Shown piece after piece: positions 36,446 to 59,600 of a DNA stretch of 64,000 bases; position 1 is the first letter of the stretch, and each line of letters opens with the position of its first letter. This DNA is from Streptomyces asiaticus (GTDB taxonomy: Bacteria; Actinomycetota; Actinomycetes; Streptomycetales; Streptomycetaceae). The stretch covers positions 558,001 through 622,000 of the forward strand of contig NZ_JAGSHX010000006.1 of the NCBI RefSeq assembly GCF_018138715.1. Direction: 5' to 3'. The notes below the pieces were generated by a model. The model was not told where the DNA came from, did no database searches, and saw nothing but the letters and a program-made list of their open reading frames with translations. Both the position numbers and the translations under genes were made by a program.

Positions 36446-36894
36446 CGCTCGCGCTCCCTGTGGCTGGGGGAACCCCTGGTGCGCCGGGGCCGCTCGCGCT
36501 CCTCGGCCTCGGGTTCCCGGTCCTCGTCGTCATCGTCCCGCAGCAGATCCGAGACCGACTCCTTGACGCCTTCCAGCGCGCCCTTGGTCTTCTTCTTGCC
36601 GCCGCTCTCCTGGATCTCGTCCATGAGGCCGGGCAGACCATGGGTTTCGGTGCCGCTGCGGGCGAGGTCGAGTCGGTTGGTCGCCTCCGCGAACCGCAGG
36701 TACGTGTCCACGCTGGCGACGACGATACGGGCGTCGATGGTCAGGATCTCGATGCCCACCAGGGACACCCGCACATACACGTCGATGACCAGGCCCTTGT
36801 CCAGGATGAGGTCGACCACGTCGACCAGGGCGCTGGAACTCGCCCGGTCCAGATACTGGCTCTGCTGCTGCCGTGCTACGGTCACCGCGCTCAC
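36442..36894 (-). CDS. gvpA: Gas vesicle structural protein GvpA with acidic C-terminal extension
   Basis: The 150-residue protein has the GvpA core at ~14-75 ([58 protein letters not shown]), which forms the ribbed vesicle wall. Typical cyanobacterial or haloarchaeal GvpA is ~70-75 residues; this one adds ~75 residues of Lys, Asp, Glu and Arg-rich low-complexity tail. Such extended forms are seen in Streptomyces. GTG start with a weak SD (GGAACGG); GTG 36885 is possible. Confidence 0.92.
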
Positions 36895-43861: not shown

Positions 43862-46255
43862 TCAGCCGGTCCAGGACCATTCGGCGACCTCGGGCATATC
43901 GGTGCCGTGCTCGCGGATCCACGCCTGGTGGCGGGTGCGGGCGTCCTGCATCCGCTGCCGTACGGCCGTGGCGCGCACCGCGAGCCCGGGGGTCCGGTCG
44001 ATGACGTCCATCACCAGCCGGTAGCGGTCCAGGTCGTTGCGGACCACCATGTCGAACGGCGTGGTCGTGGTGCCCATCTCCAGGTAGCCGCGCACATGGA
44101 GGTTGGGGTGGACGGCGCGGCGGTAGGACAGCCGGTGCACCAGCCACGGATAGCCGTGGTAGGCGAAGATGACCGGGCGGTCGCGGGTGAAGAGGGCGTC
44201 GAACTCGTGGTCCGTCATCCCGTGCGGATGCTCCTCCTTCGGCAGCAGCCGGGTCATGTCGACCACGTTGACCACCCGCACGGCCACATCGGGCAGATGG
44301 CGGCGGAGGATCCCGGCGGCCGCGATGACCTCCTGGGTGGGCACATCGCCCGCGGCGGCCAGCACCACGTCCGGCTCCCCCGCGCCGTTCTCGGTACCGG
44401 CCCAGTCCCAGGTCCCGGCGCCGCGGGCGCAGTGGGCGCGCGCCTGGTCGAGATCGAGCCAGTCGAAGCAGGGCTGTTTGCCCGCGACGACCACATTGAC
44501 GTAGTCGCGGCTGCGCAGGACGTGGTCGGCCACGCTGAGCAGGGTGTTGGCGTCCGGGGGCAGATAGACGCGCACCACCTCCGGGCTCTTGTTGAGCACA
44601 TGGTCGACGAAGCCGGGGTCCTGGTGCGAGAAGCCGTTGTGGTCCTGGCGCCACACATGGGAGGTCAGCAGGTAGTTGAGGGAGGCCACCGGGCGCCGCC
44701 AGGGCAGTGAGCGGGACACCTTCAGCCATTTGATGTGCTGGTTGACCATGGAGTCCACGATGTGCACGAACGCCTCGTAGCAGGAGAAGAGGCCGTGCCG
44801 CCCGGTCAGCAGATAGCCCTCCAGCCAGCCCTGGCAGAGGTGCTCGGAGAGGATCTCCATGACCCGGCCGCCCCGGCTGAGGTGCTCGTCGGTGGGCGCG
44901 ACGGACTCCTGCCACGCCTTGCCGGTGGCGCGGTAGAGGGCCTCCAGCCGGTTGGAGGCGGTCTCGTCGGGGCCCACCACCCTGAAGTCGCGGCGGTCGG
45001 CGGTGTCCTCCATGACCTCCTCCAGCAGTCCGCCGAGGACCCGGGTCGGCTCGTGCAGGGTCGCGCCGGGCTTGTCCACGGGCACCGCGAACCGCTCCAG
45101 GTCCGGCACGGGCAGCGAGCGCAGCAGCAGTCCGCCGTTGGCGTGCGGATTGGCGCCCAGGCGGCGGTCGCCCTCCGGGACCTCGGCCAGCAGGTGCGGC
45201 CGGGGCCGCCCGTCGGCGTCGAAGAGCTCCTCGGGGCGGTACGAACGCAGCCAGCGCTCCAGCTGCCGCAGATGCTCCGGGTTCTCCCGGACGCCCGGCA
45301 GGGGGACCTGATGGGCGCGCCAGGTGCCCTCCACCGGGAGCCCGTCGACCTCCTCGGGCCCGGTCCAGCCCTTGGGCGTACGGAGCACGATGACGGGCCA
45401 GCGCGGCCGCTCGGCGATGCCCTCCTCGCGGGCGGTGCGCTGGAGCAGGGCGATCCGGTCCAGCGCCTCGTCCAGGGCGTGCGCCATGGACCGGTGCACC
45501 TGAAGCGGTTCGTCTCCGGCGACGTGGATCGGCTCGTGGCCGTACCCCCGCAGCAGGTCGTCGAGTTCGGGCTCGGGCAGCCGGGCGAGCACCGTGGGGT
45601 TGGCGATCTTGTACCCGTTGAGATGGAGGATCGGCAGCACGGCGCCGTCGTGGACCGGATCCAGGAACTTGTTGGCGTGCCAGGAGCCGGCCAGCGGGCC
45701 GGTCTCGGCCTCGCCGTCGCCGATGACGCAGGCGACCAGCAGCCCGGGGTTGTCCAGCGCGGCCCCGTAGGCGTGGGCGAGGGAGTAGCCGAGCTCACCG
45801 CCCTCGTGGATCGAGCCGGGGGTCTCCGGGGCCACATGGCTGGGCACCCCGCCGGGGAAGGAGAACTGCCGGAAGAGCCGGGCCATGCCCGCCGCGTCCC
45901 GGCTGACGTCCGGATAGACCTCGGAGTAGCTGCCGTCCAGCCAGGAGCCCGCGAGCACCGCGGGGCCGCCGTGGCCGGGGCCCCAGACGCAGATGGCGTC
46001 CAGGTCGCGGTCCTTGATGACGCGGTTGAGATGGGTGTGGACGAGGTTGAGCCCGGGTGAGGTGCCCCAGTGGCCCAGCAGCCGGGGCTTGATGTGGTCC
46101 GGGCGCAGCGGTTCGGTCAGCAGCGGGTTGGCCAGCAGATAGATCTGGCCCGCCGCGAGGTAGTTGGCGGCGCGCCAGTGGGCGTCCAGGGCGCGGATCC
46201 GGTCGTCGGCGAGCCCGCCGCCCGGCGAGCCCGTCGTGGTCGGTGCGTCTGGCAT
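43862..46255 (-). CDS. xfp: Phosphoketolase (xylulose-5-P/fructose-6-P)
   Basis: The 797-residue TPP enzyme has [76 protein letters not shown] and the TPP/Mg motif [16 protein letters not shown]-terminal transketolase-like domains are present. It cleaves xylulose-5-P or fructose-6-P with phosphate to acetyl-P plus an aldose-P, giving an ATP-yielding shunt without NAD reduction, useful in low oxygen. It lies downstream of a universal stress protein on the same strand, at the edge of the dormancy-like block. Confidence 0.95.
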
Positions 46256-46392: not shown

Positions 46393-46394
46393 GT

Positions 46395-47366
46395 TCAGTC
46401 CCGGTCCGGCACGTTTCCGTCCCGGTCCGGCACGTTTCCGTCCCGCTCCGGCACGATGCGGTCCCGCTCCGGCACGATCACCACCGGGCAGGGCGCGTGG
46501 TGCAGGGCCGCGTGGGCGATACGGCCGAGTTGCAGCCCGGCGGTGTGACCGTGGCCGCGGTGAGCGCCGAGGACCAGCAGATCGGCGGTGGCGGCCGCGT
46601 GGAGGAGCGCCTTGCGGGCCGTGCCCTCGACCGTCGCGCGGTGCACGGTGACCTCGGGGTGGTCCCGTACGGGGGTCCGCAGGGCGTCCTCCAGCGTCCG
46701 CTCCGCCCGTGCCCAGTGGGCCCGTACCGGGTCCCCCTCCAGCAGCAGATCATCCGTCACCTCACCGACGGGCGCGCGCCAGGCCCGTACGGCCTCCAGG
46801 GTGCGGCCGCCCGCCTCGGCCTCGTGGAAGGCGAACCGGACCGCAGCCGACGGACCGCCCGCCCCGCCGGGCTCGCCCACGCCGAGCACGATCCGGCCGA
46901 AGGCGCCGCCCCGGTTGGGCTCGCCGCCGCGTACGACGGTCACCGGGCAGCCGGCGCGGGCGGCGACCGCGAGGCTCACCGAACCGAGCAGCAGCCCGGC
47001 GAGTTCGCCGCGGCCGCGGGAGCCGACGACCACGCCCGACGCCTCCCGCCCGGCGCGCAGCAGCGCGTCCACCGGGTCCTCCGGCAGGACCTCGGCGGCG
47101 ACCTTCACATCGGGGCCGCGGCGGCGGGCGCGCTCCGCGGCGGACGCGGCGATCTCCTCGTCCCTGATCTGTTCCCAGGGGCGCCCGGGGGCGGCGGCGG
47201 GCGCGATGCCCTCGTACCGCTCCCACAGCGAGGCGTGGACCAGCCGCAGCGGCACCGCGTGCCGGGCCGCCGCGTCCACCGCCCAGTCCACCGCCTGGAG
47301 GCTGTGGTGCGAGCCGTCGACGCCCACCACGAGGGGGAGCTCCACCGTGTCCACCACCTTCCGCAC
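46395..47366 (-). CDS. Universal stress protein, two UspA domains, with C-terminal repeat tail
   Basis: The 323-residue protein has two tandem Usp domains: the first with VVGVDGSHHSLQAVDWAVDA and the ATP motif GSRGRGELAGLLLGSVS; the second with IVLGVGEPGG and GAHRGHGHTAGLQLGRIAH. The tail IVPERDR-IVPERDG-NVPDRDG-NVPDRD is encoded by a 21-bp unit repeated four times (46398-46481). GTG 47366 has GAAGG 7 bases upstream; GTG 47372 is an alternative. It is divergent from the CBS-BON gene and shares a control region with three OsdR/DosR-like boxes. USPs of this type are induced by hypoxia and stasis. Confidence 0.9.
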   Translation of the reverse strand: MRKVVDTVELPLVVGVDGSHHSLQAVDWAVDAAARHAVPLRLVHASLWERYEGIAPAAAPGRPWEQIRDEEIAASAAERARRRGPDVKVAAEVLPEDPVDALLRAGREASGVVVGSRGRGELAGLLLGSVSLAVAARAGCPVTVVRGGEPNRGGAFGRIVLGVGEPGGAGGPSAAVRFAFHEAEAGGRTLEAVRAWRAPVGEVTDDLLLEGDPVRAHWARAERTLEDALRTPVRDHPEVTVHRATVEGTARKALLHAAATADLLVLGAHRGHGHTAGLQLGRIAHAALHHAPCPVVIVPERDRIVPERDGNVPDRDGNVPDRD

Positions 47367-47429
47367 CCGCACGCCTTCGCCCCCCGTCCCGACGCCTTCA
47401 CCCTCGCGCCCGTCCGGGATCCCGCGCGA

Positions 47430-47492
47430 GGGGCGTTTCGGCCCCGCCGAGGGTCGTTCGGCCCAGGGCACCCGTGCGGGCCGAACGGTCCC
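47430..47492. promoter_or_regulatory. Cluster of three OsdR/DevR-like boxes between usp and CBS genes
   Basis: The reverse complement of 47478-47492 is GGGACCGTTCGGCCC. AGGGTCGTTCGGCCC is at 47450-47464 and GGGGCGTTTCGGCCC at 47430-47444. The GTTCGGCCC half is kept in the first two and TTCGGCCC in all three. DosR/DevR-type regulators bind GGGAC...GNCCC-like palindromes. The cluster lies in a 199-bp divergent gap, so it may control both genes. Confidence 0.6.
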
Positions 47493-47565
47493 GAGCGGAC
47501 CCCGGGCAGCCCAAGAAGAGGGCCGGAGCGCCGTCCCACGCTGGGAGCGGACCGGGGAGGCACGG

Positions 47566-48168
47566 ATGAAGCACCGCAAGATCGGCAATGTGATGACCGA
47601 CGACGTCGTCCGGGTGAGCTCCAGGACCTCGTTCGACGAGGTCGGTGCGCTGCTCTCCCGGCACCGCTTCAACGGGCTGCCCGTGGTGGACGGGGACGAC
47701 AAGGTGGTCGGCATGATCACCGGGACCGATCTCAGCGAGCCCGCCCCGACGGCCGGAGAGCTGATGTCGCGCCCCGCGGTCACCGTGCGCCCCCAGGACA
47801 GCATCGTGGACGCGGCCCGCGCGATGGACCGCCATCGCGTCGAGCGGCTGCCCGTCGTCGACGAGGAGGACCGGTTGATCGGCATCGTCACCCGCCGGGA
47901 CCTGCTGCGGGTCTTCCTCCGACCGGATGACGAGATCCGCGCCGAGGTGATCGACGAGGTGCTGGTCCGCTCGCTGTGGCTCGGCCCGCAGTCCGTGGCG
48001 GTCACCGTGACCGACGGGGTCGTACGGCTGGAGGGGCAGCTGGACCGGCACAGCGAGATCCCCATCGCGGTCCGGATGACCGGGCAGGTGGACGGCGTGG
48101 TCGCCGTGGTCGACCGGCTCAGCTACCGGGTCGACGACTCCGCGGGCCGGGGAGGTGCGCGGCGATGA
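47566..48168 (+). CDS. CBS-domain pair plus BON domain protein
   Basis: The 200-residue protein has two CBS motifs (~1-60: VMTDDVVRVSSRTSFDEVGA; ~65-125: ELMSRPAVTVRPQDSIVDAA, ending LIGIVTRRDLLRVFLRPDDE) and a C-terminal BON domain (~130-185: GVVRLEGQLDRHSEIPIAVR). It resembles hypoxic response protein 1 (Rv2626c) plus a BON module. CBS pairs bind adenosyl nucleotides, BON domains bind phospholipids. GGGGAGG precedes the ATG, and its stop overlaps the next usp start (ATGA). Confidence 0.9.
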   Translation: MKHRKIGNVMTDDVVRVSSRTSFDEVGALLSRHRFNGLPVVDGDDKVVGMITGTDLSEPAPTAGELMSRPAVTVRPQDSIVDAARAMDRHRVERLPVVDEEDRLIGIVTRRDLLRVFLRPDDEIRAEVIDEVLVRSLWLGPQSVAVTVTDGVVRLEGQLDRHSEIPIAVRMTGQVDGVVAVVDRLSYRVDDSAGRGGARR

Positions 48169-49070
48169 CCCGCCCGGCCGGCAAGCCGCTGCGGGACGGC
48201 CGGGTGGTGGTGGGCCTGGACGGCTCCGACAGCGCCTGGGCCGCGCTGGACCGGGCGGTCGCCGAGGCGCGGCGCCGTGACGCCACGCTGGAGATCGTGC
48301 ACGCCTGGCCGTGGGCCCGGACCGACCCGCTCGCCTTCGACCCGGACAGCGAACCGCGGCGGCCCGCGGTGGAGATCGCCAGAACCGTGCTGCGGCTGGC
48401 CATGTCGCGGGCCCAGGAGCAGGATCCGCACCTGCGGATCGTGCCCACCCTGACGGCCCAGGACGCGGTGCCCGAGCTGCTGCGGATCGGCGAGGACGCC
48501 TCGCTGATCGTCATCGGCACCCGGGGGCTGGGCGGTTTCACCGGACTGCTGCTCGGCTCGGTCGGGCTGCGGCTGGCCGCCCACACCCGGCGCCCGCTGC
48601 TGGTGGTGCGCGGCGGGTCCACGAGGGCGTACGGGCCCGAGGGCCACGGCAAGGTGCTGGTCGGGGTGGAGAGCGGCGCGGACGCGGCGGCGGCCCGCTT
48701 CGCCTTCGAGGAGGCGGCCCGGCGCCGGGCCCGGCTGCGGGTGCTCTACGCCTGGCCGAAGCCGCGGGTCTTCGCGGGCGATCACGCCCTGCCCGCGCGC
48801 GAGGTGGTGGCGCTGCGCGCCGAGCGGGAGCAGACGGTGGCGCACGGGATGGTGGCCGGGCTGCGCGAGGAGTTCGGGCACATCCGGGTGCGGGAGCACA
48901 CCACCCACAGCGGCCCCGCACAGGCCCTGGTGGAGGCGTCGCGGGCGGCGGACGTCCTGGTGCTGGCCGTCCACCGGCGGACACCCCGGCTCGGTATGCA
49001 GCTCGGCCCCGTGACCCATGCGGCACTGCACCATGCGCACTGCCCGGTGGTGCTGGTGCCGGTCGAGTAG
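48165..49070 (+). CDS. Universal stress protein, two UspA domains
   Basis: The 301-residue protein has domain 1 with VVVGLDGSDSAWAALDRAV and GTRGLGGFTGLLLGSVG (ATP-binding GxxGx9GS) and domain 2 with VLVGVESGADAAAARFAFEE, ending VLAVHRRTPRLGMQLG and PCPVV-type end (HCPVVLVPVE). The second domain lacks the strict GxxG motif. Coupled to the CBS-BON gene by ATGA, so both follow the boxes at 47430-47492. Confidence 0.92.
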   Translation: MTRPAGKPLRDGRVVVGLDGSDSAWAALDRAVAEARRRDATLEIVHAWPWARTDPLAFDPDSEPRRPAVEIARTVLRLAMSRAQEQDPHLRIVPTLTAQDAVPELLRIGEDASLIVIGTRGLGGFTGLLLGSVGLRLAAHTRRPLLVVRGGSTRAYGPEGHGKVLVGVESGADAAAARFAFEEAARRRARLRVLYAWPKPRVFAGDHALPAREVVALRAEREQTVAHGMVAGLREEFGHIRVREHTTHSGPAQALVEASRAADVLVLAVHRRTPRLGMQLGPVTHAALHHAHCPVVLVPVE

Positions 49071-49079
49071 AGAGCGATC

Positions 49080-49114
49080 GGCTGTTGGCTGATGGCTGTT
49101 GGCTGATGGCTGAT
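49080..49114. repeat. Degenerate GGCTGTTGGCTGAT tandem repeat
   Basis: Two 14-bp units and partial copies directly follow the usp stop and lead into the 211-bp intergenic element. The related copy at 54.9 kb lacks this expansion. Confidence 0.75.
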
Positions 49115-49325
49115 GGGTGCGGGTCTCGTTTCGCGCCTTCGGCGCCATTGAGCAGCGGGGCAGGGGGCGGAGGGCGCGGGACTCGCCGCCGCCCGCCGGG
49201 CCGGTGAGGGCAAGGCCGTGGCGGCTTCCGTGTTCGGTGGCCGGAGCCTCTCCGGACCTCGGGTCGGCGGGGGCCGGTACCCCTTTCCGGAAAATGCTTG
49301 ATCTGGCGCAACTAGTTCATCAAGC
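49115..49325 (+). repeat. Intergenic element, copy A (~210 bp)
   Basis: This copy aligns with 54922-55134 in the same orientation at roughly 85% identity. It opens with GGGTGCGGGT, has a short hairpin CGCCTTCGGCG, and ends with GCTTGAT...ATCAAGC (49296-49325, arms 7 bp). No convincing protein is encoded. Bases 49398-49632 beyond it show no gene. Confidence 0.8.
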
Positions 49326-49382
49326 CAGGGCCGGGGCCGGGCGGCGGAAAGGGCCGTAAGACCTGGTCCCCGGGGCCTCCCC

Positions 49383-49397
49383 GGGACCGGTCGGCCC
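49383..49397. promoter_or_regulatory. OsdR/DevR-like box upstream of usp (49633)
   Basis: GGGACCGGTCGGCCC differs by one base from the box at 47478-47492. It lies 236 bases before the USP start. Bases between hold no ORF, leaving room for a long leader. Confidence 0.5.
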
Positions 49398-49632
49398 TGT
49401 CGGCCGGGGCCCGGTCATGGTCCGCTGGAGATGGCACCGGGGGCAACCGGCAGACGCGGAGAAGCGGACGTCCCACTACCGCGCACCGCGCAATCAGGGC
49501 CCGCGAGAAGTGGGCGCCCCCGGCGCCGCGCCTCGGGCCGGGCACCCTCCCCGCGAGCCCGCGCGGCGCGGCGGCCCGCACGCGCCGGGCCGAACCGAGG
49601 TGCCGAGTGGGCCTGCCGGGAAGGAGGCAGCG

Positions 49633-50487
49633 ATGGCGCGCCCCGTCACCGTCGGACTGGACGGTTCCGACGAGAGTCTGGCCGCCGCCGGCTGGGCGGC
49701 CCATGAGGCCCGTTCGCGCGGAGCGCCCCTGCGGCTGGTGAACGCGTGGCCGGGGCCCGAGCAGACGGATCTGACCCCGGGCCGGGAGGCCGCCTGGCAG
49801 TACTGGTCCGAGCGCGCCCTGCGCTCGGCGCACGCCGAGCTGGACGCCGACCAGCCCGAGACGACGATCGTCACCACCCAGGTCTCCGGCCTGCCCGCGC
49901 CCGTGCTGCTGGCCGAGGCGGAGCGGGCCCAGTTGCTGGTGGTGGGGTCCCGCTCGATCGGCGTGGTCGCGGGTTTCTTCCTCGGCTCCGTCGGTCTGGA
50001 GCTCGCCGCGCGCTCCATGACCCCCGTGGTCCTGGTACGGGCGGACGGGCACGAGGAGCGGCACGGCGATGTGGTGGTCGGGGTGGAGCCGCGCGAGCCG
50101 TGCGACGACATCCTGGAGTTCGCCTTCGACGCCGCGGCCCGGCGCGACGGTGTGCTGCGGGCCGTCCACGCCAGCCGGGTCCCCGCCATCCGGGGCGACG
50201 CCCCCTGGGTGGTGGACGTGGGGCTGAGCGACGCGCGCAAGGAGGCCGAGCACGCGCTGGGCGAGGTGCTGGCGCCGTGGCGGGACAAGTTCTCCGAACT
50301 GCGGGTCTTCGAGGAGGTCGCGTCGGACAGCCCGGCCCGGCGGCTGGTGGCCGCGGCGGCGGGGACGGCGCTGATGGTCGTGGGCCGCGGTCCGCGCCGG
50401 GTGGGGTTCGGCCCCCGGCTGGGACCGGTCACTCAGGCCGTGGCGCACCACGCCGCCTGCCCGGTCGCGGTCGTGCCCCAGCGATGA
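49633..50487 (+). CDS. Universal stress protein, two UspA domains
   Basis: The 284-residue protein has domain 1 VTVGLDGSDESLAAAGWAAH and GSRSIGVVAGFFLGSVGLEL; domain 2 VVVGVEPREPCDDILEFAFD and GPRRVGFGPRLGPVTQAVAH. AAGGAGG precedes the ATG. It starts a run usp-adh-usp-(repeat ORF)-pncB-CBS on the plus strand. It is closest in style to the USP at 51702. Confidence 0.92.
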   Translation: MARPVTVGLDGSDESLAAAGWAAHEARSRGAPLRLVNAWPGPEQTDLTPGREAAWQYWSERALRSAHAELDADQPETTIVTTQVSGLPAPVLLAEAERAQLLVVGSRSIGVVAGFFLGSVGLELAARSMTPVVLVRADGHEERHGDVVVGVEPREPCDDILEFAFDAAARRDGVLRAVHASRVPAIRGDAPWVVDVGLSDARKEAEHALGEVLAPWRDKFSELRVFEEVASDSPARRLVAAAAGTALMVVGRGPRRVGFGPRLGPVTQAVAHHAACPVAVVPQR

Positions 50488-50541
50488 GCGCCCACCCCCG
50501 CTCGTGACGAGGCGGCGTAAGCCGAAGGCAGCCCAAGGCAA

Positions 50542-50597
50542 TCGGAGGACACCGGAGGAGAGGAAACCGTCGGAGGACACCGGAGGAGAGGAAACCG
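50542..50597 (+). repeat. 28-bp direct repeat x2 upstream of the alcohol dehydrogenase gene
   Basis: Two perfect 28-bp units (50542-50569, 50570-50597) begin TCGGAGGACACCGGAGG. Each holds several GGAGG-like sequences, so the dehydrogenase ATG follows an array of SD-like sites. Confidence 0.85.
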
Positions 50598-50615
50598 GAG
50601 GAAAGGGAAACGGCC

Positions 50616-51683
50616 ATGAAAGCACTCGTCTTCCACGGGCCGGAGCGGTCCTCCTGGCAGGAGGTGCCCGACCCCGAACTCGTGGCCGCCACCGACGCGA
50701 TCGTCCGGATCGACACCACGACCATCTGCGGCACCGATCTGCACATTCTCCGCGGCGAGGTGCCGGACATCGAACCCGGCCGGGTGCTCGGCCACGAGGG
50801 GGTCGGCGAGGTCGTCGAGACCGGTGCCGACGTCCGCGGGATCCGTCCCGGCGACCGGGTGCTGATCTCCTGCATCTCGGCCTGCGGCCACTGCCGCTTC
50901 TGCCGGGAGCGCGGCTACGGGCAGTGCCGTGACGGCGGGGGCTGGATCCTGGGCCGTACGGTCGACGGCACCCAGGCCGAGTATGTGCGGGTGCCCTTCG
51001 CCGATCTGTCCACGCATCCGCTGACGGGGTCGGTCGAGGGCCATGACGCCGTGCTGCTGGCGGATGTCTTCCCCACCGCGTACGAGGTGGGCGTGCTCAA
51101 CGGCCGGGTGGGGCCGGGCGACACGGTCGTCGTGGTGGGTGCCGGTCCCGTCGGGCTGGCCTCCATCGCCACGGCGCAGTTCTTCTCCCCCGGCCGGATC
51201 ATCGCCGTCGATCCGGACACGGCCCGGCTGGACGCCGCCAAGCGGGTCGGTGCCGACGCGGTGGCGGACTCCGCCGAGGACCCGGAGCGGCTGGTCGACG
51301 ATCTCACCGAGGGGCTCGGCGCCGATGTGGTGATCGAGGCCGTGGGGAGCCCGCGGTCCTTCGAGACCTGCACCCGGATGGTGCGGCCGGGCGGCCGGAT
51401 CGCCAACGTGGGGGTGCACTCCCAGCCCGCGACGCTGCATCTCGAAGAGCTGTGGATCAAGAACGTGACGATCACCACCGGGCTGGTCGACACCTACTCG
51501 ACCCCCACCCTGCTCTCCCTGCTGTGCGCCGGGCGGCTGCCCACGTCCACGCTGATCACCCATCTGTTCCAGCTGGACCAGATGGAGGAGGCGTACGACG
51601 TCTTCGCCCGCGCCGCCGACACCGGCGCGATCAAGATCGCACTCGGCGAGGCCGCCCGTCCGCTGGTGGCCCGGGAGACATGA
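50616..51683 (+). CDS. Zinc-dependent alcohol dehydrogenase (MDR family)
   Basis: The 355-residue protein has the catalytic zinc site TTICGTDLHILRGEVP and GHEGVGEVVE, a structural zinc loop CGHCRFCRERGYGQC, and the Rossmann motif VVGAGPVGLASIA. It resembles class-III/threonine-like MDR alcohol dehydrogenases. Reoxidation of NADH by aldehyde reduction would fit fermentative survival under hypoxia. Zinc ADHs are in the S. coelicolor OsdR-linked region. Its stop is 18 bases before the next usp start. Confidence 0.92.
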   Translation: MKALVFHGPERSSWQEVPDPELVAATDAIVRIDTTTICGTDLHILRGEVPDIEPGRVLGHEGVGEVVETGADVRGIRPGDRVLISCISACGHCRFCRERGYGQCRDGGGWILGRTVDGTQAEYVRVPFADLSTHPLTGSVEGHDAVLLADVFPTAYEVGVLNGRVGPGDTVVVVGAGPVGLASIATAQFFSPGRIIAVDPDTARLDAAKRVGADAVADSAEDPERLVDDLTEGLGADVVIEAVGSPRSFETCTRMVRPGGRIANVGVHSQPATLHLEELWIKNVTITTGLVDTYSTPTLLSLLCAGRLPTSTLITHLFQLDQMEEAYDVFARAADTGAIKIALGEAARPLVARET

Positions 51684-51701
51684 GTGGGGAGGCCGATGCG
51701 C

Positions 51702-52553
51702 ATGGGAGCACCCATCACCGTCGGGGTCGACGGTTTCGCCGAGAGCCCGCCGGCCGCGCACTGGGCGGCGCGCGAGGCGCTGCTGCGCGATCTGCGGCTG
51801 CGTCTGATCCACGCCTGGAACCCGCCGTCGCCCCCGGCCCCGGCCCTCCCCCACGAGGACGACCAGAGCTACTGGTCGCAGCGGCTGCTGACCGACCTGG
51901 TGGGCGAGTTGCGCGACACCCACCCGGGGCTGCGGGTCTCGGCGGAACTGGCGCCGCGCGAAACCGTGCCCGCCCTGCTGGACGCGGCCCGGGACGCCGA
52001 GATGCTGGTGCTCGGCTCGAGCGGCCGCGACACCCCCGGCGGCTTCCTCCTCGGGTCGACCGGCCGCCAGATCCTCGCGCACGGGGTACATCCGGTGATC
52101 ATGGTGCACGCCGACGACCAGCCGCTGACCGCCGATGTGGCCGTCGGGGTGTCCCTGCGGCAGCCGAACGAGGAGGCGCTGCGGTTCGCCTTCGACGCCG
52201 CCGCCCGGCGCGGCGGTGTGCTGCGCGCCGTGCACGCGGGCACGAGCGGGCCGGGGCACGGGGAGGCAGTGGGGCACGAGGAGGCAGCGGGGGATGAGGA
52301 GGAGCCGGGGGCGGAGGGCGCGCTGGAGGCGGCGCTGCGCCCCTGGCGGGAGCGATACCCCGGGGTGCCGGTGGCGGAGGCCCTCACCGCGGAGCGCCCG
52401 GCGCTCGGCGTGGTGCACACCGCGTCGGGCTCGGGGCTGCTCGTGCTGGGCCGCGACGAGACGGAGCCGGGCCCCGTTCCCCACCTCGGCTCGGTGATCC
52501 ACGCGGCGGTGCACCACGCGCCGTGCCCGGTGGCGGTCGTCCCACGCGGCTGA
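51702..52553 (+). CDS. Universal stress protein, two UspA domains
   Basis: The 283-residue protein has domain 1 ITVGVDGFAESPPAAHWAAR and GSSGRDTPGGFLLGSTGRQI; domain 2 VAVGVSLRQPNEEALRFAFD, with an acidic inserted stretch (HGEAVGHEEAAGDEEEPGAE) at ~185-205. ATG 51702 was chosen for GGGGAGG at 9 bases; ATG 51696 and GTG 51684 are alternatives. The stop overlaps the first ATG of the 21-bp repeat ORF. Confidence 0.9.
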   Translation: MGAPITVGVDGFAESPPAAHWAAREALLRDLRLRLIHAWNPPSPPAPALPHEDDQSYWSQRLLTDLVGELRDTHPGLRVSAELAPRETVPALLDAARDAEMLVLGSSGRDTPGGFLLGSTGRQILAHGVHPVIMVHADDQPLTADVAVGVSLRQPNEEALRFAFDAAARRGGVLRAVHAGTSGPGHGEAVGHEEAAGDEEEPGAEGALEAALRPWRERYPGVPVAEALTAERPALGVVHTASGSGLLVLGRDETEPGPVPHLGSVIHAAVHHAPCPVAVVPRG

Positions 52554-52681
52554 TGTCCGGAGGGAAGCGAGCGATGTCCGGAGGGAAGCGGCTGATGTCC
52601 GGAGGGAAGCGAGCGATGTCCGGAGGGAAGCGGGTGATGCCCGGAGGGAAGCGAGCGTTGTCCGGAGGGAGGCGAGAGTGA
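52553..52681 (+). repeat. 21-bp tandem repeat x6 forming a 42-residue ORF
   Basis: Six in-frame 21-bp units start at 52553, 52574, 52595, 52616, 52637 and 52658. Each encodes MSGGKR plus one residue (A, L, A, V), then MPGGKRA and LSGGRRE before TGA at 52679. Each unit contains ATG(TTG in the last) and GGAGGG, so it is both a start codon and an SD for the next unit. The first ATG overlaps the usp stop (TGATG), and the TGA lies one base before the pncB start. It may couple translation between the flanking genes; a function for the peptide is unknown. Confidence 0.8.
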
Positions 52682-52682
52682 C

Positions 52683-54041
52683 GTGTCGGAGGCGATGACC
52701 ACCGACCTCTACGAGGTGACGATGGCCCTGTCGTATGTGCGCGAGGGCATGACGGCCCCCGCCACCTTCGACCTCTACGTCCGCGATCTGCCGCCCGAGC
52801 GGGGCTTCCTGGTCGCCGCGGGCCTGGAACCGGCGCTGGACTTCCTGTCCGGCCTCCGTGTGGAGCCCGAGGACGTGGCGGCGTTCGCCGCGGCGATGGG
52901 CCGTCCGTACGAGGACCTCGAACCGCTGCTGGGACTCGGCTTCGACGGCGAGGTGCGGGCGGTGCCCGAGGGGCGGATCGTCCTCGCCGGGGAGCCGCTG
53001 CTTGAGCTGACCGCGCCGCTGCCACAGGCCCAGCTGGTCGAGACGTATCTGCTGGGGCAGCTGAGCCACCAGACCACCATCGCCTCCAAGGCGGCCCGGT
53101 GCGTGGTGGCCGCGGAGGGGCGCCCGGTGGTGGACTTCTCGCTGCGCCGCACCCACGGCCCCTGGTCCGGGCTCCAGTCGGCGCGGCTGGGCGCGATGAC
53201 CGGGTTCACGGCGACCAGCAATGTGGCGGCGGCCACGGCCTACGGGATCGAGGCCACCGGGACGATGGCGCACTCGTACATCGAGGCGTTCCCGGACGAG
53301 GGGACCGCGTTCCGCGCGTTCGCCCGTACCCACCCCGGCCCGGTCACCTTCCTGGTGGACACCTACGACACGGCGACCGGTGTGGCCACCGCGGCGCGGG
53401 TGCTGCGCGAGCTGGAGTCCGGGCCCCTCGGCGCGATCCGGCTGGACAGCGGTGACCTGGGCGAAGAGGCGGTGCGGGCCCGGAAGATCCTCGACGCGGC
53501 CGGTCTGCCGGAGGTGCGGATCGTGGCGAGTGGCGGGCTCGACGAGTACGCCATCGAGGAGCTGATCCACTCGGGCGCGCCGATCGATGTCTACGCCGTG
53601 GGTACCCGGATGGGCGTGTCAGCCGACGCCGCCTCCCTCGACACCGCGTACAAGCTGGTCGCCTATGACGGGCGGCCGGTGATGAAACTGTCCTCGGCCA
53701 AGGCCACGGCCCCGGGCAGCAAGCAGGTGTGGCGGCGCCCCGGCTTCGCCGATGTGATCGGCGAGCGCGACGAACTTCCGCCCCACGGCGGCACGCCGCT
53801 GCTGGAGACCGTGATGCGGGAGGGCGCACGGACCGCGGCCCCCGACACCCTCGACCGCGCCCGGCGGCGGTTCGACACCGATTTCGCGGGGCTGCCGCCG
53901 CACGCCCGGCGGATCCGCCGCCCGGCCCCGCCCCGGCCCGCCACCTCCGCCGGGCTGGCCCGGCTCGCGGGGCGGGTGCGCCGCCGGATCGAGGTCCGGC
54001 TGGCGGCCGGGGGCGAGGTGGGCGGAAGACAGGCAGCGTGA
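52683..54041 (+). CDS. pncB: Nicotinate phosphoribosyltransferase
   Basis: The 452-residue protein has TTDLYEVTMALSYVREGM, GFLVAAGLEPALDFL, VDFSLRRTHGPWSG, GTMAHSYIEAFPDEGTAFRA (catalytic His region), IRLDSGDLGEEAVRARKIL and SGGLDEYAIEEL. It makes nicotinate mononucleotide for NAD salvage. In Mycobacterium tuberculosis the second copy, pncB2 (Rv0573c), belongs to the DosR regulon, matching its place here. GTG 52683 gives the family-like N-terminus; ATG 52695 is possible. The stop is inside the first unit of a 25-bp repeat. Confidence 0.93.
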   Translation: MSEAMTTDLYEVTMALSYVREGMTAPATFDLYVRDLPPERGFLVAAGLEPALDFLSGLRVEPEDVAAFAAAMGRPYEDLEPLLGLGFDGEVRAVPEGRIVLAGEPLLELTAPLPQAQLVETYLLGQLSHQTTIASKAARCVVAAEGRPVVDFSLRRTHGPWSGLQSARLGAMTGFTATSNVAAATAYGIEATGTMAHSYIEAFPDEGTAFRAFARTHPGPVTFLVDTYDTATGVATAARVLRELESGPLGAIRLDSGDLGEEAVRARKILDAAGLPEVRIVASGGLDEYAIEELIHSGAPIDVYAVGTRMGVSADAASLDTAYKLVAYDGRPVMKLSSAKATAPGSKQVWRRPGFADVIGERDELPPHGGTPLLETVMREGARTAAPDTLDRARRRFDTDFAGLPPHARRIRRPAPPRPATSAGLARLAGRVRRRIEVRLAAGGEVGGRQAA

Positions 54042-54095
54042 CGAAGGCGGAAGACAGGCAGCCTGACGAAGACGGATGACAGGCAGCGTGACGAA
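54021..54095 (+). repeat. 25-bp tandem repeat x3 at the pncB end
   Basis: Units at 54021, 54046 and 54071 begin GGCGGAAGACAGGCAG (third GACGGATGACAGGCAG). The pncB stop is in unit 1. As 25 is not a multiple of 3, each copy shifts frame. Confidence 0.85.
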
Positions 54096-54105
54096 GGAGG
54101 ATGCC

Positions 54106-54771
54106 GTGCCCCGGAGTGCGCACATCGTGAGCGATGTGATGACCCATACCGTCGTCGCCGTCGGCCGCGAAGCGCCGTTCAAGGAGATCGTCAGAACGCT
54201 GGAGCAGTGGCGGGTGAGCGCCCTGCCGGTGCTGGAGGGCGAGGGCCGGGTCATCGGCGTGGTCTCCGAGGCGGATCTGCTGCCCAAGGAGGAGTTCCGC
54301 GACAGCGATCCCGCGCGGGTGACGCAGCTGCGCGACCTTCCCGGTGTCGCCAAGGCGGGCGCGGTGACGGCCGATGAGCTGATGACGTCCCCCGCCATCA
54401 CCGTGCACGCGGGCGCCACGCTCGCCGAGGCCGCGCGGATCATGACCCACAAGCGGGTCAAGCGGCTCCCGGTGGTGGACGAGGAGGGGAGGCTCGAGGG
54501 CATCGTCAGCCGCGCCGACCTGCTGAAGGTGTTCCTGCGGCCGGACGACGACATCGAGGACGAGGTACGCCGCGAGGTGGTGACCCACCTCTTCCCGGCC
54601 CAGGGCGAAACCGTCCGGGTGAGCGTGAACGAGGGCGTGGTCACCCTGGCCGGACGGGTCAAGGAGGCCGTCCTCATCCCGGCGGCGGCCCGCCTCATCC
54701 GCGCGATCGAGGGCGTGGTCGACTTCGACAATCAGCTCACGGCCGCGCCCCATACGACCCAGCGGCGGTAG
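54106..54771 (+). CDS. CBS-domain pair plus BON domain protein
   Basis: The 221-residue protein has CBS1 (~6-70: DVMTHTVVAVGREAPFKEIV, VIGVVSEADLL), CBS2 (~85-150: ELMTSPAITVHAGATLAEAA, LEGIVSRADLLKVFLRPDDD) and a BON domain (~160-215: VRVSVNEGVVTLAGRVKEAV). It is homologous to the CBS-BON gene at 47566, notably the shared LLKVFLRPDDxI ending. GTG 54106 has AAGGAGG upstream. It closes the plus-strand usp-adh-usp-pncB run. Confidence 0.9.
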   Translation: MPRSAHIVSDVMTHTVVAVGREAPFKEIVRTLEQWRVSALPVLEGEGRVIGVVSEADLLPKEEFRDSDPARVTQLRDLPGVAKAGAVTADELMTSPAITVHAGATLAEAARIMTHKRVKRLPVVDEEGRLEGIVSRADLLKVFLRPDDDIEDEVRREVVTHLFPAQGETVRVSVNEGVVTLAGRVKEAVLIPAAARLIRAIEGVVDFDNQLTAAPHTTQRR

Positions 54772-54921
54772 GCGCGCCGTCCGGCGGCCCCTAGCGGGCC
54801 CTAGCGGGCCATGTGGCTTAGGGCCCGGGCCCTGGGGGTGGCGGGCCCGCTCGATCAGCCGCCGCGGCCCGCTGACACGGCCGCTGACGGGCGGGACGCC
54901 CGAGGGCGCCGATCGGTTGTT

Positions 54922-55134
54922 GGGTGCGGGTTTCGTTTCGCGCCTTCGGCGCCATTGAGCAGCGGGGCAGGGGGCGGGGAGCGCGGGCCTCGCCGCCGGC
55001 CGCCGGGTCGGTGAGGGCAGGGGCGGTGGCGGCTTCCGTGCTCGGTGGCCGGAGCCCCTCCGGGCTGCGGGTCGGCGGGGTCTGCGGACCCCCTTCCGAA
55101 AAATGCTTGATCTGACGCAACTAATTCATCAAGC
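54922..55134 (+). repeat. Intergenic element, copy B (~213 bp)
   Basis: Homologous to copy A (49115-49325), same orientation, with the same terminal GCTTGAT...ATCAAGC arms (55105-55134). It lies between the CBS gene and the convergent membrane-protein gene. No other gene is seen in 54772-55194. Confidence 0.8.
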
Positions 55135-55194
55135 GATGGGGGCCCGCCGGGTCCGCCGGGGCGGGGTCCTGGGCGTCCGGGCACGGCCATCGTG

Positions 55195-55776
55195 TCAGCG
55201 GATGTGGCGGCTCCAGCGGGGGCCGACCTCGGCCCAGGCGCGGCCCCACTCCTGGGTGCGGGCGCGGTCCAGGCGCCAGCGCGCCACGCCGCGTCCGGCC
55301 AGCGACACCGCGCCCACGCCCGCCGCGGCGGAGGTCCCGGCGAGCACCGCGCGGGTGGCGATCTGCTCGGGGGTGGGCGGCCGCTGGACCAGGCGGCCCC
55401 GGCCGTCGGTCCAGATCTCGGTGGCGGTGCCCGCCTTGCTCCCCTCGTGGACCCGTGCCGTACCGGTGTGGACGGCGCCGTCCGGGCCGGTCCACCGGAC
55501 GATCGCGCGCACCAGGCCGGTGGTGGAGCCGTCGGCGGCGGGCTGTGCGACGGGGGCGTCCTCCTTCAGCACTGCGGGCACCCGGTGCCGGTCCGCCCGC
55601 TCCTGCCGCAGTGACGCGTCCACGGCGGTGCCCGCGGCCACCCCGGCCGCCGGGCCGCCGACCGCCATCACCAGGCCGGTCACGAGCACGACCCACGCCT
55701 CGATCACGTCCGAGCGGCGTCTGAGCGGATTGCGCCGCCACCGCCACAACCGCCGCCCCCGCACTTGCGTGCCCAT
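55195..55776 (-). CDS. Rv1733c-family membrane protein
   Basis: The 193-residue protein has an Arg-rich N-terminus ([20 protein letters not shown]), a first span ([21 protein letters not shown]), an extracytoplasmic domain of ~95 residues ([50 protein letters not shown]) and a second span ([18 protein letters not shown]). This layout is that of Rv1733c, a DosR-regulon membrane protein of unknown function. It is divergent from the response regulator gene; a DevR-like box lies in the gap. ATG 55776 has only a weak SD. Confidence 0.85.
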
Positions 55777-55832
55777 GCCGTGACCGTCGCACGCGCGGGG
55801 CGGGCGGGACGAGGGCCGGGCAGCCCCCTTGG

Positions 55833-55847
55833 GGGCCCGTTCGGCCC
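55833..55847. promoter_or_regulatory. OsdR/DevR-like box between Rv1733c-like and response-regulator genes
   Basis: GGGCCCGTTCGGCCC differs by one base from the 47478-47492 box. It lies 57 bases from the membrane-protein start and 77 from the regulator start, so it may serve both and allow autoregulation. Confidence 0.55.
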
Positions 55848-55923
55848 TGGTACCGCGCTGACCTGCTGCGCCACGATTCCCACCGGGGGCCGGGCGGACG
55901 GCGGACGAACGGTGCGAGAGCCC

Positions 55924-56628
55924 ATGACGGAGACCGAAGCGACACGAGCGACACCGGCGACGCCCATCAGGGTGTTCGTCCTCGACGACCATGAGGTCGT
56001 CCGGCGCGGACTGCACGATCTGCTGGACGCCGAACCGGACATCGAGGTGGTCGGCGACGCCGGGACCGTGGACCACGCGATGGCCCGGGGCCCGGCGCTA
56101 CGGCCCGACGTGGCCATCCTGGACGTCCGGCTGCCGGACGGGGACGGCATCACGGTCTGCCGTGAGCTGCGCTCCCGTATGCCGGGTCTGGCCTGTCTGA
56201 TGCTGACGTCGTTCGACGACGACGATGCCCTGCTGGACGCGATCATGGCCGGGGCGGCGGGCTATGTGCTCAAGCAGATCAAGGGGTCGGACCTGGTCTC
56301 GGCGGTGCGCACCGTGGCGTCCGGCCAGTCGATGCTGGACCCGGCCACCACCGCCCGGCTGATGAGCACCCTGCGGGGCGACACCGCCCCGCAGGAGCCC
56401 CGGGACGAGGTGCTGGCCGGGCTGTCCCCGCGCGAGCGGGAGATCCTGGTGCTGATCGGCGACGGGCTCACCAACCGGCAGATCGGCAAGCGGCTCTTCC
56501 TGTCCGAGAAGACGGTCAAGAACCACATCTCCCGGCTGCTGGCCAAGCTGGGCGTGGAGCGCCGCATCCAGGCGGCGGTGCTGGCGACCCACTCGGCCCC
56601 GCGCCCCGACGACGGCCATCCGGGATGA
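55924..56628 (+). CDS. osdR: NarL/LuxR-type response regulator, OsdR/DevR-like
   Basis: The 234-residue protein has a receiver domain with acidic pair Asp21-Asp22, phosphoacceptor Asp67 ([13 protein letters not shown]), Thr95 and Lys117. A LuxR-type helix-turn-helix lies at ~160-215 ([40 protein letters not shown]). The sequence style ([35 protein letters not shown]) matches DevR/DosR. Its likely kinase partner is the two-GAF histidine kinase at 57888-59600. The ATG 55924 has weak SD GAGAG. A DevR-like box precedes it. Confidence 0.85.
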
Positions 56629-56693
56629 CACGGCTCCACCACCCTGATGGACGACCACCACCACTGACGGCGCACCGGCGAGGAGAGGACCCC

Positions 56694-57698
56694 ATGCAGC
56701 CCGCAATGCTCGACGCGGCGATCCTGGAGAAGCTCATCTCCGCGGCCGTGGCCGCTCCCTCGATCCACAACACCCAGCCCTGGCGCTACCGGCTGAACCC
56801 CGACACCGTCACCCTGGAGGTCCGGGCCGCCCCCGAGCGGGCGCTGCGGTACGCCGATCCGATGGGCCGGGCGCTGAGCGTCTCCGCCGGGGCCGCCGTG
56901 TTCAATCTGCGGGTCGCCGTGGCCCACTTCGGCTGGGATCCGGTGGTCCGGCTGCTGCCGTCCCGGTCGCAGCCGGATCTGCTGGCCACGGTGCGCCTGG
57001 CCGCGTCGCCCACTGACCGTGCCGGGCGCCACGACGGCGGACACGACGACCTGTACGACGTGATCTGGCGGCGGCACAGCAGCCGCTCGCCCTATTCCGC
57101 GCGCCGGCTGCCCGCACGGGTGCTGTGCGACCTGACGGAGGCCGCGCGCGCGAACGGGGCCACGCTGTGGCTGGCGGACCCCGAGGAGACCGCATGGCTG
57201 CTGCGGCTGACCGCCGAGGCGGAGCGGCGCGTCTCCGGGGACCCGCGCCGGCTCGCCGAGAGCCGTACCTGGATCCGCGACACCGGGCCGTACGGAATCC
57301 CCTCGACCGCCCTCGGCCCACGGGACGCCACCGGACGGCTGCCGATGCGCGACTACCTCGGGCCGCGGCCCGACGGCCGCTGGGGCGGCGACCGGTCCGC
57401 CGCCGCCCCGTTCGAGTCCCACCCGACCATCGCCGTGCTGACCACGGACCAGGACCGGCGCACCGACTGGCTGCGGGCCGGGCAGGCGCTGGAACACGTC
57501 CTGCTGCTGGCGACCTCGCACGCGGTCCGGGCGTCCCTGCTGCACCAGGCGCTGGAGTGGTCCGATCTGCGGTGGTCGCTGGGCGGCGCCCACCCGGCGC
57601 CCGGCCATGTGCAGATGCTGATCCGGCTGGGTTACGGACCGGTGGGCCCGGCCACGCCGCGCAACGGGGCGGCCGAGGCCCTGGACGGCGGCCGCTGA
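56694..57698 (+). CDS. Acg-family FMN-binding oxidoreductase (nitroreductase fold)
   Basis: The 334-residue protein matches Acg (Rv2032)-type proteins: AAVAAPSIHNTQPWRYRL near the N-terminus (FMN site), VSAGAAVFNLRVAVAHFGWD, RRHSSRSPYSARRLP and LLATSHAVRASLLHQALEWS. It has two half-domains related to nitroreductases; mycobacterial Acg sequesters FMN without known reductase activity and is DosR-regulated. GAGGAGAGG precedes ATG 56694. It follows the response regulator by 65 bases. Confidence 0.9.
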   Translation: MQPAMLDAAILEKLISAAVAAPSIHNTQPWRYRLNPDTVTLEVRAAPERALRYADPMGRALSVSAGAAVFNLRVAVAHFGWDPVVRLLPSRSQPDLLATVRLAASPTDRAGRHDGGHDDLYDVIWRRHSSRSPYSARRLPARVLCDLTEAARANGATLWLADPEETAWLLRLTAEAERRVSGDPRRLAESRTWIRDTGPYGIPSTALGPRDATGRLPMRDYLGPRPDGRWGGDRSAAAPFESHPTIAVLTTDQDRRTDWLRAGQALEHVLLLATSHAVRASLLHQALEWSDLRWSLGGAHPAPGHVQMLIRLGYGPVGPATPRNGAAEALDGGR

Positions 57699-57719
57699 CG
57701 CGGCACAGGCCAGCACCTA

Positions 57720-57885
57720 CAGCGGCGCCACGGTCGGCGCTTGTCGCCGCGCCACGGCCGACGCCGACCGCCGCGCCAGGGCAGGCATCCATCACCACGC
57801 CACGACCAGCGCCGACCGGCTACGCCGCGGGCCACCGCCAATCGCCGCGCCACGGGCCACCGCCGACCGCCGCCGCCCGGCCACC
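57720..57885. repeat. Low-complexity GC tract with imperfect CGCCGCGCCACGG-type repeats
   Basis: This gap between the Acg gene and the convergent kinase consists of imperfect copies of CGCCACGGCCGACCGCCG-like units of ~20-40 bp. No gene or clear terminator is seen. Confidence 0.6.
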
Positions 57886-57887
57886 GC

Positions 57888-59600
57888 CTACCGCTCCGGC
57901 AGCGGTACCGACCACACCAGGCGGGTGCCGCCGCCCGGCGGCTCGCCGAGTTCCAGCTCACCGCCGAGCTTCTCGGCGCGCTCGGCCATGTTCCGCAGTC
58001 CGCTGCGACGGCCGCCCTCGGGGATGCCCACCCCGTCGTCCGTGACCGTGAGGGTCAGCCGCCCGGACGCCACGATCAGCGAGATCTCGGCGGCGGCGGC
58101 CTCCGCGTGCCGGGCGATGTTCGACAGCGCCTCGGCCAGCACGGCGACCATGTCGTCCGCGACCAAGCGCGGCACATCGGTGTCGACCAGGCCCTCGGTG
58201 CGCAGCGAGGGGGTGAAGCCGAGCGCGGGCACGGCCTCCTCGATGGTCTTGGCGGTACGGACCCGCAGCCCCTGGACCGCGGGGCCCGCCTCGTGCGAAC
58301 GCAGCCCGAAGATCGTCGAGCGGATGATCTTGATGGTGTCGTCCAGGTCGTCCACCACCCGCAGCAGCCGCTCCGAGCCCTCCGGATGCTGGACGAACCG
58401 CAGCGTGGACTGGAGCGTCATTCCGGCGGCGAAGAGCCGCTGGATGGCCAGGTCGTGCAGATCGCGGGCGATCCGGTCGCGGTCCTCGAGCAGGGCGAGC
58501 TGCTCGGCGTCGCGCCGTCGCTCGGCCAGTTTCATCGCGATCGCCGCCTGGCCCGCGAAGCCCAGCAGGGTGTCGGTCTCGATCTGGGTGAAGACGGGGC
58601 TGTCCGCCACCCGGGCCAGCGCGAGCACCCCGCCCACCCCGTCCCGCGTCCGCATCGGCACCGCGACGGCCGGGCCGAGCCCCTCCCAGCGCTGCGGACC
58701 GACCGTGATCCGCGGGTCGTTCTGGACGTCGGTGCTGGTGACCGGCTCGGAGGCGGTGAAGGCCGCACCGCCGAAGGTGCCCCGGCGGGGCAGCACCAGA
58801 CCGCGGTGGGCCTCGGCGTCGGTGCCCGCCGCCAGCGCGACCTGGAGCTCGTCGGTACCGGCCATCGGCAGCATCAGCACACCGAGGTCGGCGGAGAGGA
58901 TCCGGCGGGCGTGCTCGACGATCAGCGCCAGGACCCTGGTCTCGTCCACTCCGGACAGCAGGCTGCGGGTGACCTCGGCGTTCGCCTCCAGCCAGCGCTG
59001 GCGGTGCTGGGCCTCCTCGTACAGCCGGGCGTTCTCGATGGCCACCCCGGCGGCCACGGCGAGGGTGGACAGCACCGTCTCGTCCTGGCCGTCGAACTCC
59101 TTACCGCCGCGCTTCTCGGTGAGGTAGAGGTTGCCGAAGACCTCGTCACGCACCCGGATGGGGACTCCGAGGAAGGAGTGCATCGGCGGGTGGTTCGGCG
59201 GAAAGCCGTAGGAGGCCGGGTGCTCCGAGAGCTCGGCCAGCCGCAGCGGCTGGGGGTGGCGGATCAGCTCGCCGAGCAGCCCGTGGCCCGACGGCAGCCG
59301 CCCGATCGCCTCGGCCCGCTCCTTGGCGACGCCCACCGGCAGGAACTCGGCCAGCCGCTCGTCCTCGCCGATCACGCCCAGCGCCCCGTATTCGGCGTCG
59401 ACCAGCACCACCGCGGCCTCGACGATCCTCCGCAGCACATGCGACAGATCCAGCTCCCGGCCGACCGAGAGCACCGCTTCCAGCAGGCTGTGCACCCGGT
59501 CCTGGGTGCCACGCACCCCGTCGATGCGCACCTGGAGCTCTTCCAGCAGCTCGTCCAGCCGCAGCCGGGGCAGGTACTCCGTACTCCTCGTGCTCTCCAT
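57888..59600 (-). CDS. osdK: Two-GAF sensor histidine kinase, OsdK/DevS-like
   Basis: The 570-residue protein has GAF-A (~55-190), GAF-B (~215-355), a HisKA_3 dimerisation helix with phosphoacceptor His382 (RIARDLHDLAIQRLFA) and an HATPase domain (EALSNIARHAEAAAAEI, VTDDGVGIPEGG). In GAF-A, FPPNHPPMHSFLGVP aligns with the DevS segment holding haem ligand His149, so His137 is the candidate haem iron ligand. This predicts an O2/NO/CO or redox sensor. The partner is the adjacent NarL-type regulator. ATG 59600; a GTG at 59606 with GGAGG upstream is an alternative. Confidence 0.88.
   Translation of the reverse strand: MESTRSTEYLPRLRLDELLEELQVRIDGVRGTQDRVHSLLEAVLSVGRELDLSHVLRRIVEAAVVLVDAEYGALGVIGEDERLAEFLPVGVAKERAEAIGRLPSGHGLLGELIRHPQPLRLAELSEHPASYGFPPNHPPMHSFLGVPIRVRDEVFGNLYLTEKRGGKEFDGQDETVLSTLAVAAGVAIENARLYEEAQHRQRWLEANAEVTRSLLSGVDETRVLALIVEHARRILSADLGVLMLPMAGTDELQVALAAGTDAEAHRGLVLPRRGTFGGAAFTASEPVTSTDVQNDPRITVGPQRWEGLGPAVAVPMRTRDGVGGVLALARVADSPVFTQIETDTLLGFAGQAAIAMKLAERRRDAEQLALLEDRDRIARDLHDLAIQRLFAAGMTLQSTLRFVQHPEGSERLLRVVDDLDDTIKIIRSTIFGLRSHEAGPAVQGLRVRTAKTIEEAVPALGFTPSLRTEGLVDTDVPRLVADDMVAVLAEALSNIARHAEAAAAEISLIVASGRLTLTVTDDGVGIPEGGRRSGLRNMAERAEKLGGELELGEPPGGGTRLVWSVPLPER

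Follow-up and report, generated by a model that had tools for sequence, protein, structure and literature searches.

Does a compact cluster of stress-related genes in Streptomyces asiaticus form a regulon controlled by the sensor kinase and response regulator encoded within it? The cluster lies in a 64,000-nt stretch of DNA that was analysed as a whole (the window; G000:C6:558001-622000 of an 11.88-Mb genome, G and L numbers being our genome and locus labels). An initial annotation had described an OsdK/OsdR-type hypoxia island of 12 genes here, and all 12 were found in their places by domain or family profile matches and structure matches (Table 1). A phosphoketolase gene next to the block and USP1, encoding a universal stress protein (USP), lie on the minus strand. 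These are followed by CBS-BON1, USP2, USP3, an alcohol dehydrogenase (ADH) gene, USP4, pncB and CBS-BON2 on the plus strand, an Rv1733c-like gene (minus), the regulator gene RR1 and Acg (plus) and the kinase gene K1 (minus). Eight of the 23 Usp domain matches of the genome fall at genome positions 604470-610544 (window 46470-52544), in agreement with the four two-domain USPs that had been claimed. We put the probability that these genes work as a gas-responsive stress regulon of the OsdKR/DosSR type at about 85%.

The two signalling proteins point to this type of system. K1 displays a GAF-GAF-HisKA_3-HATPase domain order, and its first GAF domain matches both structure 2vzw (E 4e-51; entry label 'probable histidine kinase'), which we take to be DosT, and the DevS structure 2y8h (E 5e-47); a match to DosT 3zxq (E 1e-16) covers its ATPase part. 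The pocket of this domain, GAF-A, contains an HPPM histidine, a tyrosine 22 residues further on and a YGALGV glycine. In our own mapping from the structure-match alignment, these appear to match His149 and Tyr171 of DosS and Gly85 of DosT, whose roles in the haem pocket are described in a part of PMC4082495. The triad was complete in 77 of 84 kinases, and three more lacked only the glycine-region pattern. RR1 contains a receiver and a LuxR/GerE domain, with DevR (3c3w, E 1e-77) as its best solved relative. Domains and haem-pocket residues therefore support the OsdK/OsdR-type identity originally proposed. As to close relatives, RR1 equals the regulator of Streptomyces endocoffeicus across 229 aligned columns, and K1 is 97% identical to a S. 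violaceusniger kinase.

We then searched for binding sites with a weight matrix built from the OsdR sites in Table 1 of PMC5069765, at a threshold of 12 bits. Five sites of at least 12 bits were found in the 13.4-kb block, whereas 14 genomic stretches of 20 kb (280 kb) together yielded five (Poisson 5e-6). None of 500 symmetric column permutations of the box model reached five in the block, and the control motif gave none. Four of the five sites, at 47450, 47477, 49383 and 55833, lie in promoter regions. Judged by gene spacing, the transcription units that we infer would allow the three box-bearing promoter regions to control 11 of the 12 genes, as well as the phosphoketolase gene. The genes presumed to be internal to these units (USP2, ADH, USP4, pncB and CBS-BON2) showed no site above 4.1 bits in the 300 bp upstream.

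Conservation of the block and its boxes was investigated in related loci. A scan of named genomes yielded 121 stretches encoding a K1 relative, the 80 best being retained as named loci; a second sample comprised 20 further loci, and the two sets can overlap (L137 and L060 are possibly one contig). Nearest to the window are 13 named loci (L055-L067), whose kinases are 83-97% identical to K1; they form one tree group with support 100, which we take to be the S. violaceusniger clade. The block order recurs partly or wholly within the reach of each of these clade loci, with pncB present in 9 and Acg in 11. Across both sets (80 named, 20 further), the clade loci, L135 and L136 were the only ones to show most of these genes. 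Upstream of the regulator gene, all 13 clade loci and 27 of 31 other loci carried a box that reached 12 bits; the 31 are those whose regulator is at least 55% identical (5 of 36 fell below 55% and were excluded). The misses were L083, L086 (11.7 bits), L089 and L134. For comparison, a complement-letter motif scored in 0 of 44 loci. Random 300-bp windows drawn from these loci, and containing further probable sites, gave 60 of 1320, and random windows of the genome itself gave 1 of 840. All 13 clade loci likewise had a box before the Rv1733c gene, as did 2 of 7 others, and six of the nine evaluable clade loci had one of 12 bits or more before USP3. L136 carries a USP1-CBS-BON1 triple array with identical 20- and 27-bp spacing, scoring 12.0, 10.5 and 11.6 bits. 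These data bear out the earlier view of a compact island beyond chance, since the gene order repeats in related species together with common sites.

The island shares with S. coelicolor OsdK/OsdR (DevS/DevR, SCO0203/SCO0204) the kinase and NarL-regulator type, the same palindromic box and, in the nearby region, USP, zinc-ADH and nitroreductase-family genes, as far as described in sections of PMC5069765; Table 1 of that paper includes SCO0200-0198 as a USP-ADH-USP unit with an OsdR site. However, S. coelicolor has an osdR-osdK operon (parts of PMC5069765 and PMC9739842), whereas here K1 is convergent with the RR1-Acg pair, with Acg lying between. The pncB and two CBS-BON genes inside the block are a further difference, as is narG: the S. 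coelicolor regulon includes narGHJI as a target, and no narG above the cut-off was found here. Convergence is common in the family. A regulator at least 55% identical was in reach in 44 of the 80 named loci, of which 37 were convergent, four regulator-then-kinase and three divergent; in the 20 further loci, the 15 kinases with such a regulator gave 10 convergent, two divergent, two regulator-then-kinase and one kinase-then-regulator arrangement. The S. coelicolor order, absent here, was seen as a regulator-kinase tandem in L149 and L153, which fall together in a nine-row kinase-tree group beside that of the window. Because the genes are convergent here and run regulator-then-kinase in S. coelicolor, the island is OsdKR-type but is not filed as the SCO0203/SCO0204 orthologue; K1 and RR1 are possibly paralogous to those products, as OsdK kinases fall into several groups in the trees. 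In these quick trees (SH-like approximate likelihood ratio test support only), the window group comprised 42 rows with support 97 in one tree and 61 rows with support 93 in the other, separate from the group of a second kinase, K3 (40 rows, support 100), and from a third, K2, with two relatives (support 100).

The kinase and regulator family is also that of the Mycobacterium tuberculosis DosS/DosT-DosR system. We take Rv2032 to be Acg, Rv2623 to be a USP and Rv0573c to be pncB2. Rv1733c, Rv2032/Rv3131, Rv2623, Rv2626c and Rv0573c all belong to the DosR regulon according to passages of PMC4082495 and PMC5309233, which confirms the memberships on which the initial annotation had relied. CBS-BON2 resembles Rv2626c at the level of CBS domains only (E 1e-7 to a 133-residue chain, with many other CBS proteins outscoring it when CBS-BON2 was the query). 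M. tuberculosis has its regulon genes in nine blocks, as given in part of PMC5309233, whereas here they form one; the BON domains on the CBS proteins and the adjoining phosphoketolase gene are differences as well.

Taken together, these features suggest the following model. K1 would bind haem in its first GAF domain, and loss of bound O2, possibly modified by nitric oxide (NO) or carbon monoxide, would switch K1 on and lead to phosphorylation of RR1. Phosphorylated RR1 would then bind the three promoter regions. The USP1/CBS-BON1 region with its three boxes would drive USP1, and probably the phosphoketolase gene, in one direction and CBS-BON1-USP2 in the other; the USP3 promoter would drive USP3-ADH-USP4-pncB-CBS-BON2; and the Rv1733c/RR1 region would serve Rv1733c one way and RR1-Acg the other. 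Since the box between Rv1733c and RR1 would drive RR1-Acg, RR1 is predicted to be self-regulated and K1 is not. The products would fit a non-growing, low-oxygen state, with stress proteins, salvage of nicotinamide adenine dinucleotide (NAD), redox balancing and fermentative carbon flow.

Several observations weigh against this assignment. It is drawn from genes, haem-pocket residues, boxes and box conservation, and the 13 clade loci are close relatives and non-independent. K1 has no box (best upstream site 1.5 bits), and a kinase box was found in none of the 13 clade loci and in 10 of 67 others. Acg of this genome lacks a separate box (0.6 bits), one being present in 6 of 11 clade loci, and the fifth site of at least 12 bits, at 46781, is within the USP1 coding sequence. 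The USP1-CBS-BON1 array could be checked in few relatives: USP1 was reached in no clade locus, and CBS-BON1 was evaluable in two, with a site in one of them, plus L136. Four of the 84 kinases, the paralogue K4 of this genome and three others, lack the histidine motif. The strict palindrome was not enriched genome-wide (48 places versus 75 for the reversed control), and a looser form with at most one mismatch occurred eight times in the whole window versus 3.8 expected, a count reached by 7 of 100 shuffles. The genome-wide pattern scan, being below its control, was rejected as proof of a regulon; the box signal is one of location and conservation. In addition, a second cluster at C6:9.683-9.702 Mb (L185, 9683000-9702500) contains genes of the CBS-BON, Acg and USP types next to others that resemble hydrogenase-maturation genes, recognised by eye except for the Acg and Usp matches, and holds no OsdR-type site of at least 12 bits. 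Gene content alone is therefore no proof of OsdR control, and we rejected it as such.

The genome contains three OsdKR-type loci, the other two being those of the K1 relatives K2 (59%, C6:8410539-8412224) and K3 (55%, C6:9807498-9808655), with regulators RR2 and RR3 nearby that are 72% and 73% identical to RR1. Island 2 carries an Rv1733c-like gene, a USP gene and a Crp-like gene, and island 3 a USP gene, a flavohaemoglobin-like gene and a partial NarK-like gene (all by eye, except for the Usp matches). OsdR-type sites lie before RR2 and RR3 and close to the flavohaemoglobin-like gene of island 3. Because K3 lacks the stretch matching residues 412-523 of the intact L109 kinase, it is probably dead. 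A search for narG found none above the cut-off in the genome; the strongest match was 55 residues in island 3, below the cut-off, with five weaker partial matches elsewhere. The region G000:C6:9799926-9809531 looks like an eroding third island, with an intact regulator, a broken kinase and narG and NarK-like remnants. More widely, OsdK-type kinases at E 1e-105 or better were found in 130 of 150 Streptomyces genomes, this one included. With nine candidates scored per genome, 51 genomes had one copy, 51 two, 24 three and four had four, so that 79 of the 150 had at least two. The proposal that the block is the core regulon of its regulator is thus supported, if simplified: OsdR-type sites stand at three promoter regions and are conserved, but K1 is siteless and outside the regulator operon, and the locus is one of three.

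Streptomyces chromosome arms are rich in conditionally useful genes, and the block might be a general stress-gene cluster of this sort with no common control, as the similar site-free cluster at 9.68-9.70 Mb would suggest. Box enrichment, box conservation and a gene order common to relatives argue against this explanation, which we consider very improbable; enrichment and conservation also make a chance cluster unlikely. A closer contender is an OsdR-type regulon with NO or redox state, instead of low oxygen, as its main signal. It would agree with the finding that an NO donor lowers autophosphorylation of S. coelicolor DevS (OsdK), reported in a section of PMC4766573, and with the sites near the flavohaemoglobin-like gene of island 3. 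However, K1 has the DosT-type glycine, which one group holds to allow stable O2 binding (the review PMC4082495, in the relevant section, notes disagreement), and the block proteins that were searched included no recognisable nitrate reductase or flavohaemoglobin. We regard such a signal as unlikely.

The relation among the three loci raises a different possibility, that RR2 or RR3 also controls the block promoters and K1-RR1 is one of several interchangeable inputs. The similarity of both regulators to RR1, the same kind of box upstream of each and the broken kinase of locus 3 would favour such cross-control, as would the phosphorylation of a second regulator, SCO3818, by OsdK, reported in part of PMC9739842. 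RR1 and its box, however, stay with the block in the 13 clade loci, and we rate this possibility slightly lower than that of an NO or redox signal. An OsdKR/DosSR-type gas-responsive regulon centred on K1 and RR1 is the reading that we retain.

The initial annotation proposed that the phosphoketolase would support energy yield without oxygen. Its gene (XFP) follows USP1 at a distance of 139 bp in the same orientation, and the two possibly form one transcription unit; OsdR-type control of phosphoketolase in this genome would have to run through USP1. Phosphoketolase genes were present in 12 of the 80 OsdK-type loci and in 2 of the 20 further loci. Of 13 evaluable cases, four (L122, L123 and L128, sharing one site, and L146) showed a box that reached 12 bits no more than 400 bp upstream; L074, at a locus edge, is left out of this count. 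A USP1-like gene upstream of XFP was also seen in L069, L072, L082, L090 and L136, with gaps of 125-946 bp. The idea of a widely OsdR-controlled USP1-XFP pair was rejected: only L136 has a site before USP1 (12.0 bits), and L069, L072, L082 and L090 score 1.5-8.3 bits. One acetate kinase gene was found, at C6:2699609, outside the block. Acetyl phosphate is an in vitro phosphodonor for OsdR, as stated in part of PMC5069765. One could imagine a latch in which the regulator induces phosphoketolase, the resulting acetyl phosphate phosphorylates the regulator independently of the kinase, and carbon flux holds the dormant state; we consider this a long shot. In the open-access literature, we found no paper combining phosphoketolase and OsdR in Streptomyces.

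Table 1 Genes and OsdR-type boxes of the S. asiaticus block, in window coordinates.
Feature	Position	Strand	Evidence or score
XFP phosphoketolase	43862..46255	-	Pfam XFP_N/XFP/XFP_C; NCBIfam phosphoketolase
USP1, two-domain universal stress protein	46395..47357	-	Usp domain matches
Three-box OsdR-type array between divergent USP1 and CBS-BON1	47430..47492		Starts at 47430 (10.1 bits), 47450 (12.3) and 47477 (12.8)
CBS-BON1	47566..48168	+	CBS 1e-29 and BON 2e-11 in longer open reading frame; start refined
USP2, two-domain	48165..49070	+	Usp domain matches
OsdR-type box GGGACCGGTCGGCCCT, 250 bp ahead of USP3	49383..49398	+	14.8 bits
USP3, two-domain	49633..50487	+	Usp domain matches
Zinc alcohol dehydrogenase	50616..51683	+	
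USP4, two-domain	51684..52553	+	Usp domain matches
pncB	52683..54041	+	Nicotinate phosphoribosyltransferase level, NF009131 E 5e-181
CBS-BON2	54076..54771	+	
Rv1733c family protein	55195..55779	-	NF050032 E 2.1e-57, 194 bits (cut-off 80)
OsdR-type box GGGCCCGTTCGGCCCT between divergent Rv1733c-like gene and RR1	55833..55848	+	16.3 bits
RR1, DevR/OsdR-type NarL-family response regulator	55924..56628	+	Domains; DevR structure match
Acg family flavin mononucleotide-binding oxidoreductase	56694..57698	+	NF047509 E 4e-86, above cut-off; structure 2ymv E 1e-17
K1, DevS/DosT-type GAF sensor histidine kinase	57888..59600	-	Domains; structure matches

Other features of the window were also recorded. 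A perfect OsdR-type palindrome of 21.2 bits is located at window 16962-16977, about 204 bp before a lamin-tail-domain gene (16318-16773, minus strand). Among the 30 best loci of 63 genomes with this gene, a site at -204 to -211 was found in the genome itself, G149, G055 and G069 and in 0 of 25 other evaluable loci; the gene is a candidate for an extra regulon target. Short tandem repeats occur at the gene junctions 52531-52697, 54023-54101, 50542-50612 and 46394-46477, three of the four with Shine-Dalgarno-like sequence (by eye), and the first three vary in length and copy number between species. In L061 and L062, a Crp-like gene (by eye) that resembles the one in island 2 is inserted between pncB and CBS-BON2. 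Gas vesicle genes (GvpL/GvpF and Gas_vesicle domains) lie at window 35639-36894, about 9.5 kb off the island, and no Rfam match at gathering scores was obtained within the window.

A repeat of about 220 bp is present in two copies, at window 49108-49330 and 54915-55145. Scoring 40 of 352 candidates gave at least 33 genomic matches for its family, whose members elsewhere often consist of two inverted arms; the island copies are single arms. Among relatives, L055-L058 (partly split) or L066 carry it at two places, and L059 at one. One copy folded no better than shuffled sequences (z -0.10). As a genome-wide family with such a fold, the repeats were set aside as a regulatory element of the regulon.

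These results place the island, with good support, among OsdKR/DosSR-type systems as a new member whose arrangement differs from that of the S. coelicolor operon. It gives promoter-level predictions for a Streptomyces clade distinct from S. coelicolor, and shows that OsdK-type kinases are often multiple in a Streptomyces genome. It also offers a natural case in which narG is down to a remnant while the branch for stress, NAD and fermentation persists. This bears on the 'anaerobic paradox' of Streptomyces, as it is named in a passage of PMC5069765.

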